Shown: positions 14,401-17,400 of the stretch, in pieces
How the letters are laid out: every line of letters starts with the position of its first letter
How positions within the stretch are numbered: position 1 is the first letter of the stretch
NCBI GenBank assembly: GCA_963971305.1
Contig: OZ020303.1
Span: 36,196,106 to 36,260,105, forward strand
Source: Arcuatula senhousia
Taxonomy: Eukaryota; Mollusca; Bivalvia; Mytilida; Mytilidae
Direction: 5' to 3'
Length of the DNA: 64,000 nt
The notes under the pieces: model-generated
The model's input: the letters and a program-made list of their open reading frames with translations, nothing else
Database searches by the model: none
What the model was told of the DNA's origin: nothing
Made by a program: the position numbers and the translations under genes

Positions 14401-17400
14401 AGGTGAAAAATAGCATTTTTTCATGTTTTTGGCCTACAGAATGAAAACTATTGCAGATAGAGAATAGCTGTTGCTTGCTTAAATGTTTAGCTCATTTAGC
14501 TCTACAAAAGTCTCCATAGGGTCGAAGTTGTCAGATGACCCCTTATAGGGGTTACGGCCCCTTAAAGGTGAAAAATAGCCATTTTTCATGTTTTTGGCCT
14601 ACAGAATGAAAACTATTGCAGATAGAGATTAGCTGTTGCTTGCTTAAATGTTAAGCTCATTTAGCTCTACGAAAGTCTCCATAGGGTCGAAGTTGTCAGA
14701 TGACCCCTTATAGGGGTTACGGCCCCTTAAAGGTGAAAAATAGCCATTTTTCATGTTTTTGGCCTACAGAATGAAAACTATTGCAGATAGAGATTAGCTC
14801 TACGAAAGTCTCCATAGGGTGGAAGTTGTCAGATGACCTCTTATAGGGGTTACGGCCCTTGAAAAATAGCGTTTTTTTCATGTTTTTGTCCTACAGAATG
14901 GAAACTATTGCACATAGAGATTAGCTGTTGCTTGCTTAAATGTTCAGCTCATTTAGCTCTACAAAATTCTCCATAGGGTCCAAGTCGTCAGATGACCCCT
15001 TATAGGGGTTACGGCCCATGAAAAATAGCGATTTTTCATGTTTTTGTCCTACAGAATGAAAACTATTGCAGATAGCGATTAGCTGTTGCTTGCTTAAATG
15101 TTCAGCTCATTTAGCTCTACAAAATTCTCCATAGGGTCAAAGTTGTCAGATGACCCCTTATAGGGGTTATGGCCCCTTATAGGTGAAAAATGGTGCTTTT
15201 GGCCTATAGAATGAAAACTATTGCAGGTAGAAAAAAGCTGTTGCTTGCTTAAATGTTCAGCTCATTTAGCTCTACAAAAGTATAGGGTCAACATCAAGAC
15301 CAGGTGAGCGATTCAGGCTCCTGGGAGCCTCTTGTTAATTAAGAGTTTAACTTTTTCTTCAATAAAAGTTTATTTTTTCTTATTAACGGAATAATAAATA
15401 TAAAACTTAGATAGCTCATTCGGTAACACAAACTATGCACAAAATAATTGCCACACATGCTTGAAGTTTAAATTGGATATAAACAAGTTATACTTGTTTA
15501 ACCATTACATGCACATGTAAACTGGATGTTGTCGAGGTCTTAAATTATCAAAACACTTCGATACTTGCTAAATATTGCCCTGCTATATATATAAATATCA
15601 TAATAATGTAATCAGAATGACAATACATAATATTTACGGGGGTAACATAGTAAAAAGTAAGTGTTCTAACAGTACACTCTAAATTGATCAGGTGTTGTCT
15701 GTAACACGTTATATAGATAGAGAGGTTGGTAAAGGTTAACAACATTTTGCAGAGTTTGTCTCATGTGCTGTGTGGATACAGTTGAACGTATCCCCGTGCT
15801 TGAGGTGTATGCTCTTTTATATTTTCATGATGGTATACTTGTACACGAGATAGCTTTCATATTTGAATCTCCCTTCCATTGACCTTCAACTTAATTTTTG
15901 TCGCCCTATTCTATGGTCTTCTAAGTGTTCCTACTTTTACTTCTAATCCCTGTTTTTTGTGTTTATGTTGTTGCGTTTCAAATGAGCTTGTCGGGAATCA
16001 TTGGTAGTTTTAGTAGGAAGATTTAGTCCGTGGTACTATTTCATTATTTTTTTCTGTTGATACATTTGTTTTCATGCGGTCCCTATTTTGTCATTGGACA
16101 TTCGGTTCTCTCCTAACGACACATAATCATGATTGTACGAAACGGAAAAAAGATATTTAAATAACAAACCCTTTACTAGGATATCCACACCTCACAGTGC
16201 CATACCTCCTCCAAATGTTAATTCAAGCCACACTTACAACACTCGACATAATTCCAATCCCACTTTTCAAACGTTAATTACTAAAAATCAACCCTCAAAT
16301 AAAATAACCGGTACAACTTTTAATAACTCTTATCGTGGATATCCTAAAATTTCACCCTGTGGTGCTTCTAAATGACAGACATGTAAAATACTAATCAGAG
16401 ACACCACTGTGAAATCAACTATTAACGGCCGCAAATTCTCTATAAATCTGGATCAAGATGTTAACTGACGCACCAATAACTTAATTTATTTAATAACATG
16501 ATACAAACCTGGTTGTAATATCCAGTATGTAGGGGAAACCGGTAGATATTTGTCCAAAAGAACATCGGAACATCTATATCGCTTTCGCCGCTATAAAAAG
16601 TACAAATGTCTCTTATATCAACATTTTCATAAACACAATCATAACCTTAAATACGTCAGGGTTCAACCCCTAGAAATTATTCAAAAAGACTCCAAATCTA
16701 GTAAACGAGAGTTTTGCAAGTTGAGACGACTTGCAGAACTGGAATGGATTAAAAAATTACAAACAGCTTATCCTCTGGGTCTGAACGATAACATTATGGG
16801 ACAGGGGAACATATCTAGAACATCAAATATCAATGTCATGAATTTAATAAGTCCTCGTAAACGGAACAAACGGTCGCATGGTATACGAATAAATCGTAAT
16901 GTTAGAAAACATCATCGTTCTAATTTAAGCATCACCGATCTTGTTAAAATATTTAAGAACAACGGACGACATAATCTTTTTTGTAAACTATGCTCTATAC
17001 CCGTTTCTAAGTTAAATAAAATTAGATTGGATTGTAAGACCATATCTCATGCCAGTCCCCTATATGAAGGCGCACTCATTATTAGCGCTTTTTGTTACTT
17101 TAAACTTTCCCCCCAAATTGATAGTCCTGTAGACCACATTCGACATTTTATAAAATTAACGTACATCAACAGAGGACTAGACTTCATAAACATTTCTAGT
17201 ATTTTCATGGATCCTACTATTAAAGAGTTAATACCACCATATTTTACAAATACTGAACCTCCAATCATATCTTATAAATATAAAAAACCAACACATAACA
17301 TTATTTTTAACTATACGTCCATCACTACAGATGAAGACCTAGACTCGAATATTCCTGTATCATGCGACTGTGCTAATTCGGACTTTAGATATGTTCCTTG

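Follow-up and report, generated by a model that had tools for sequence, protein, structure and literature searches.

In all likelihood, the window, that is, the whole 64,000-nucleotide stretch of DNA analyzed here (C1:36196106-36260105), holds a dead member of a young Naiad-type Penelope-like family in which UGA codons at sites 81, 112, and 123 are read as selenocysteine (Sec). A selenocysteine Naiad had been proposed in the preliminary description of this DNA, and the proposal is supported by TGA codons conserved in intact copies and by SECIS elements in full-length sister copies. The case is made from sequence: the TGAs are conserved, the protein beyond them is under purifying selection, homologues carry cysteine, the 3'UTRs contain a SECIS-like structure, and full-length copies have spread recently. 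From these features, we infer Sec incorporation itself. The features of the window are collected in Table 1.

Table 1. Positions of the element and of related features in the window
Feature	Position	Strand	Remarks
Solo 3'UTR fragment, family 2c	5333..5950	-	40 scored out of 5393 first-look candidates in the genome; identity 95-97%
Canonical SECIS, family 2c	5864..5941	-	AUGA core, 11-bp perfect upper stem, AAA apical, GGAU
Read-through frame, 608 codons	16133..17956	+	N-terminal region, GIY-YIG endonuclease, CxC linker, start of reverse transcriptase (RT); sole breaks are three TGAs
TGA site 81, relatives Cys	16373..16375	+	TGA in 36/40 copies including the window locus
TGA site 112, relatives Cys	16466..16468	+	TGA in 36/40 copies including the window locus
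TGA site 123, relatives Cys	16499..16501	+	Between GIY and YIG strands; TGA in 38/40 copies including the window locus
CxC linker motif, sites 411 and 413	17363..17371	+	Cys in window copy; TGA at 411 inferred for some public relatives
Site 547, TGT (Cys)	17771..17773	+	TGA in sister families, inferred for most close relatives; probable Sec-to-Cys reversion
RT remainder, TAA end at 19222	17957..19224	+	Last 257 residues 98% match to P0122; broken by TAA 17957 and a frameshift near 18448/18451
3'UTR, part one	19225..19585	+	Matches unbroken UTR at 5950-5333(-)
Damaged SECIS-like hairpin, window copy	19276..19359	+	51 nt behind stop; AUGG core; 6-nt insertion unique to this locus; fold z -1.5 (19279-19360)
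Foreign insertion, 18.5 kb	19586..38060	.	21-bp inverted ends; splits 3'UTR; UTR match on either side
3'UTR, part two	38061..38359	+	Matches unbroken UTR at 5950-5333(-)

One frame interrupted by three TGA codons

The read-through frame contains exactly three stops, all of them TGA, at codons 81, 112, and 123. Stops are abundant in the other two frames over the same stretch, and the next in-frame stop is the TAA at 17957. This confirms the initial observation of one frame that is open except for the TGAs at 16373, 16466, and 16499. Each TGA had also been placed where a Cys would be expected, and the aligned relatives bear this out, as the public proteins listed have Cys in 90/91 at site 81, 82/100 at site 112, and 88/103 at site 123. 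The corresponding counts at the three further sites considered below are 152/166 (411), 161/166 (413), and 88/97 (547). The chance that three random stops would all fall within the 8 conserved Cys columns of the 608 is p ~1.5e-6, a value calculated without yet requiring that all three stops be TGA. The TGAs found in other copies of the same genome are independent evidence and stronger than this calculation.

Copies of the window's family

The genome to which the window belongs comprises 1.036 Gb in 1803 contigs, 15 of which are large (C1-C15, 36-86 Mb). We labeled families by sequence, using labels introduced in this analysis, and refer to that of the window as family 1. A search with 16133-17956 returned 41 matches in 40 loci, one locus being in two pieces and several truncated. 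Because 40 of 1491 candidates were scored, the family has at least 40 copies. The matches, the window itself aside, were 98-99% identical.

We read all 40 loci (L009-L048, of which L048 is the window locus). Apart from the copies with TGA counted in Table 1, site 81 was TGG in two copies, and the remaining copies had gaps or replaced sequence at the site concerned. A 1035-codon frame with the three TGAs as its sole breaks was present in 8/40 copies, and two more copies had one additional TGA. Thus, TGA is not confined to decayed copies with Cys codons elsewhere, a pattern that the preliminary description had named as contrary to its own reading. Elsewhere, no single position had an in-frame TGA in more than 2/40 copies (480 and 948), and UGA is therefore not a general sense codon. 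At 98-99% identity, the conservation of the TGAs partly reflects recent descent. Judged by these copies, family 1 is young, recently spread, and partly intact.

Sister families with different sets of probable Sec sites

A protein search of the same genome yielded 5197 candidates, of which 99 loci were scored. In 58/99 loci, the open frame had exactly 423 codons (sites 124-546), which is the interval between sites 123 and 547, and 8 more had 419-425 codons. A 907-codon frame (sites 124-1030) was found in 13/99 loci, 3 of which contain a single additional TGA; some frames of both classes hold one internal stop, which was read through in frame counting.

Six loci of the 423-codon class were read (L051 to L056). 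The copies of family 2a (L051, L052, and L056) have TGA at 81, 84, 112, 123, and 547, which makes five sites, while those of family 2b (L053 and L054) have TGA at 81, 112, 123, and 547 and Cys at 84, which makes four. L055, also of family 2a, ends at a TAG ahead of site 112, and premature stops occur further downstream in both L051 and L055. Reading 20 further loci, we found one family-1 copy (TGA at 81, 112, and 123, Cys at 547) and 19 sister loci, all with TGA at 547. The N-terminal part was readable in 15 of these 19, and 15/15 had TGA at 81, 112, and 123; of the remaining four, three were rearranged in this part and one was half replaced. Site 84 was TGA in 6/6 family-2a copies and in 2/9 family-2b copies among the 20 loci, so Sec and Cys are mixed at this site. 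The two family-2b copies with TGA at 84 lie at C6:27375591 and C1:57670876, and the other 7/9 have Cys. In two more loci (L049 and L050), the RT end stands before the same UTR as that of the family-2c fragment. These readings of TGA indicate that sister families of one genome very probably differ in the number of Sec sites, with 3, 4, or 5.

SECIS hairpins behind the stop codon

The four families share a hairpin at the same place in the 3'UTR, with a 12-bp lower helix, the core, and an AA apex. It lies 43 nt behind the stop in family 2a, 47 nt in family 2b, and 51 nt in family 2c and in the window copy. As far as sequence can tell, the structure is SECIS-like in all four families and has a canonical core in three. 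The core was GTGA in 23/26 sister-set loci examined, which is 23/24 of the readable ones, the 24th being the family-1 copy (GTGG); of the two loci without a readable core, one was masked and one replaced. In family 1, AUGG takes the place of AUGA in 40/40 copies, despite the youth of the family and its partly intact state.

For the family-2c hairpin, Rfam SECIS_1 gave a match at 5938-5870(-) with 27.1 bits and E 0.0063 (901 bases, all families), short of its gathering score (35). When a perfect stem of 10 bp or more was demanded in a strict pattern scan, the window gave one occurrence, and 10 Markov-shuffled 64-kb sequences gave none. Rfam listed no SECIS at E<=2 for families 1, 2a, and 2b, each searched with a single representative. 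Fold z-scores were -5.0 (2a), -2.3 (2b), -5.1 (2c), -2.7 (family 1), and -1.5 (window copy with its insertion), those of families 1 and 2b being modest. Over seven distinct rows, 93.8% of cells were paired, rising to 100% in the lower helix, where six pairs vary. Pairing fell to 27-48% for slid partners, a control that is weak because the structure was derived from these same rows. In the shuffle control (n=500), pairing (92), pairs changed on both sides (255), and pair types (475) were not significant; the values for cells changed on both sides and for the covariation score were 23 and 35.

The joining of 19225-19585 to the sequence from 38061 onward, proposed in the preliminary description, proved correct, as the pieces, once joined, align with the unbroken UTR at 5950-5333(-). 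In this joined UTR, a SECIS-like hairpin is present, but it is damaged, has the AUGG core, and drew no Rfam SECIS match at E<=10. A strict pattern scan of 19225-19585 and 38061-38359 for a second SECIS in the family-1 UTR was negative. The lack of a SECIS in every full-length copy, which would have spoken against Sec, is not what we found, since full-length sister copies have one in the 3'UTR.

Selection on the protein and the history of site 547

We estimated dN/dS in four between-family comparisons, with dS of ~1 or more in most segments. Before site 81, dN/dS was 0.39-0.72, i.e., this part is freer. Between sites 81 and 123, it was 0.14-0.18 in three comparisons, the fourth being saturated; it was 0.09-0.10 over 124-546 and 0.05-0.085 after 547. 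Because dN/dS is 0.05-0.18 after the first TGA, the protein beyond every TGA is under selection.

Site 547 is TGT in 39/40 copies of family 1, with a gap in the other. A tree of 39 chosen rows (three own-genome families, 21 of the 55 public gene calls that end at residue 546, four rows with W, and 11 with Cys) requires two changes at this site, which are forced by starred branches. One falls at the base of a clade with 28 rows and support 99/94, and the other, to Cys, in family 1; the direction of these changes depends on midpoint rooting, on the presence of Cys in the outer rows, and on the ends at 546 being taken as TGA. Thus read, Cys547 of family 1 is probably a Sec-to-Cys reversion.

A possible loss of Sec incorporation in family 1

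The altered core and the Cys at 547 raise the question of whether family 1 still makes Sec. If its SECIS core is broken and Cys547 restored, the 907-codon stretch described above might be translated by itself, with the three UGAs left as relics or as a brake. The AUGG core in every copy, the near-uniform TGT at 547, and the 13 scored loci with a frame over sites 124-1030 all agree with such a loss. Against it, the segment 81-123 is conserved, with dN/dS of 0.14-0.15 relative to family 2a, and the stretch after site 123 would be without the first GIY strand (residues 117-123). The TGAs are also kept in 36-38 of 40 copies, although at 98-99% identity this may be mere recent descent. We consider a loss of Sec from family 1 unlikely.

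A related possibility, which we put forward tentatively, is that family 1 was caught part-way out of the selenium code. It would have regained Cys547 and lost the invariant A of the SECIS quartet, and it would have spread recently with three UGAs in the endonuclease; then either the non-canonical SECIS core works, or RT is made without full Sec read-through.

Public relatives and the amino acid at UGA

With TGA read as Cys, we found 136 public relatives, 120 of them among the matches listed; a profile carrying W at these positions recovered 108, including 96 new ones among the matches listed. We aligned the full set of 216 listed proteins with the query and scanned the alignment column by column, with no column chosen beforehand. 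Gene calls that end inside the query, defined by a protein end within 2 residues of the alignment end, numbered 77, with 55 ending at residue 546, 7 at 410, and 15 at single positions. Both recurrent ends directly precede a conserved Cys (547 and 411). The name Pinctada imbricata is borne by 10 listed proteins, each with a piece of an element of this kind, and 5 of these end at 546 (P0324-P0328). The calls that stop before site 411 (P0256, P0258, P0259, P0260, P0264, P0269, and P0287) suggest that, in other relatives, the leading Cys of the CxC motif is replaced by Sec; TGA at 411 was not seen in the own-genome copies read. Shared starts of truncated calls might hint at further Sec sites in RT, but the full-length sister frames have no TGA after 547. 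TGA can be inferred in public relatives down to ~38% identity.

Within the conserved Cys columns, W occurs solely at 112 (15), 123 (15), 411 (11), and 547 (7), and at 112 and 123, it accounts for most of the non-Cys relatives. None was seen at Cys 76, 81, 84, 128, or 413 among the 216 listed proteins. W also recurs as an ordinary residue in non-Cys columns, e.g., 236, 311, and 457. These W calls are what might suggest that a suppressor tRNA or a changed code decodes UGA as Trp, Arg, or Cys and not as Sec. However, P0277 and P0272 are 98.5% identical over 200 residues, and one call ends at 546, where the other reads W next. The W calls are therefore best read as TGA under table 4, and W at these sites looks like a gene-calling artifact. 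As nearly all other relatives have Cys, the UTRs bear SECIS hairpins, and other in-frame TGAs are as rare in family 1 as stated above, we reject recoding to Trp and regard decoding as any amino acid other than Sec as highly improbable. The same pattern shows that gene callers have truncated or mistranslated many public proteins of such elements by taking UGA as a stop or as Trp.

Searches gave no relatives in viral genome contigs (32 pattern matches, none confirmed), in prokaryote genome contigs (44 pattern matches, none confirmed), or in phage records.

Endonuclease fold and Naiad features

A model of the endonuclease (residues 70-240, with TGA as Cys) had a mean pLDDT of 95.5. Its best PDB match was the GIY-YIG catalytic domain of I-TevI (Foldseek prob 0.99, TM 0.68 on target, E 0.026), and UvrC GIY-YIG domains ranked 6th and 19th among the matches (E above 4). 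The whole 608-residue model had no meaningful match in the PDB (best E 1.0). Relatives carry PF01541 and PF00078, the former in 29/47 alignment members; the window's own piece lacks a PF01541 match, and its protein passes neither model. Pfam found no endonuclease or RT in the window protein, its C-terminal piece, or P0339, with SWIM, Rep_fac_C, and IFNGR1_transm below threshold. Thus, the domain assignment comes from the relatives and from the endonuclease model. The conserved Cys/His positions are 76, 81, 84, and 112 on the one hand, and 123, 128, 164, and 170 on the other (170 is His or Cys, and there is also a His at 147). Judged by their conservation, these two sets of Sec/Cys positions may form two metal sites.

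A CxC linker motif, head-to-tail tandem copies or pseudo-LTRs, and the lack of a canonical hammerhead ribozyme are traits of Naiads. In the full-length frames, the order is endonuclease followed by RT in one ORF, i.e., the endonuclease is N-terminal, and the CxC linker is present. Rfam detected no hammerhead ribozyme in 15900-20000 or in L050, L052, L053, and L009. Head-to-tail tandem copies, in the same orientation and with a spacing of 4.07-4.14 kb, were found on C6, C10, C14, and C9.

Outside the Naiad, the window contains two type I hammerhead ribozymes at 6622-6665(+) and 6979-7022(+) (Rfam 40.2 and 37.5 bits), which lie in two repeat copies 357 bp apart and are retrozyme-like. C-terminal fragments of other Penelope-like RTs lie at 4744-5172(+) and 55468-55205(-), with 36% and 48% identity to P0122.

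Decay of the window copy

The window copy is dead because of the TAA at 17957, frameshifts, and the 18.5-kb insertion that splits its 3'UTR. Codon 17957 is TAT in 39/41 aligned rows, and the two TAA rows are the window locus. Relative to other copies, a further frameshift can be inferred near the start of the window copy. Given this state and the damaged SECIS, the three TGAs could be taken for random nonsense mutations of a dead copy, a reading that we reject as scarcely credible, since the TGAs are fixed in otherwise intact family-1 copies, are common to sister families at dS ~1, and lie on Cys columns, with TGA inferred in public relatives to the distance given above.

The insertion itself consists of nested DNA transposons. 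It contains 5.3-kb inverted arms (20217-25515 and 31324-26065, 97%), each bearing an rva_4 integrase-core/HTH_21 ORF, and a Mutator-like transposase ORF at 31338-32351.

Proposed mode of action and comparison with known systems

On the preferred reading, with UGA as Sec, the element mRNA would be exported, and the SECIS hairpin just behind the stop would recruit the host Sec machinery. The ribosome would then insert Sec at each UGA to give an endonuclease-RT with 3-5 Sec. In the full protein, the GIY-YIG domain would nick DNA, and the telomerase-like RT would copy the element RNA, presumably by target-primed reverse transcription.

According to PMC11167929, canonical Penelope/Poseidon elements have RT and a GIY-YIG endonuclease in one ORF and occur as tandem copies, and the elements described here are alike in both respects. 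The same source gives these elements a C-terminal endonuclease and a hammerhead ribozyme, whereas here the endonuclease is at the N terminus, and the element stretches searched yielded no hammerhead. Host selenoproteins of mussels such as the Mytilus coruscus deiodinases, as presented in PMC8481496, have an in-frame TGA, a 3'UTR SECIS with the core UGAN/KGAW, and one Sec per protein. The core of families 2a-2c (UGAU/GGAU) fits this mussel consensus, but that of family 1 (UGGU/GGAU) does not, and in contrast to the single Sec of each of those proteins, the retroelement has 3-5 sites.

The spread of Sec-dependent transposable elements would be tied to host selenium and to the Sec machinery. Young families with 3, 4, and 5 Sec sites, a mixed site 84, and a probable reversion at 547 form a natural series, which could be used to test why Cys and Sec exchange and what effect a change in the SECIS core has.

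Among the papers listed in a literature search, no title named a selenoprotein Naiad. Craig, Yushenova, Rodriguez, and Arkhipova (2021, Mol Biol Evol 38:5005), a reference of PMC11167929, reportedly described Naiads of clams and spiders that encode selenoproteins with multiple in-frame UGAs at Cys positions. These Naiads reportedly have an N-terminal GIY-YIG endonuclease, a CxC linker, and RT, and reach a high copy number. The elements described here would share with them the endonuclease-CxC-RT layout, the multiple UGAs at Cys positions, and the high copy number. Set apart from what is reported of them, sister families of one genome here have 3, 4, or 5 Sec sites, and family 1 shows a probable Sec-to-Cys reversion at 547 together with a non-canonical SECIS core. 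Thus, selenoprotein Naiads are, by these accounts, a kind already known, and what differs here is the Sec sets that vary between sister families, the probable reversion at 547, and the altered core of family 1.
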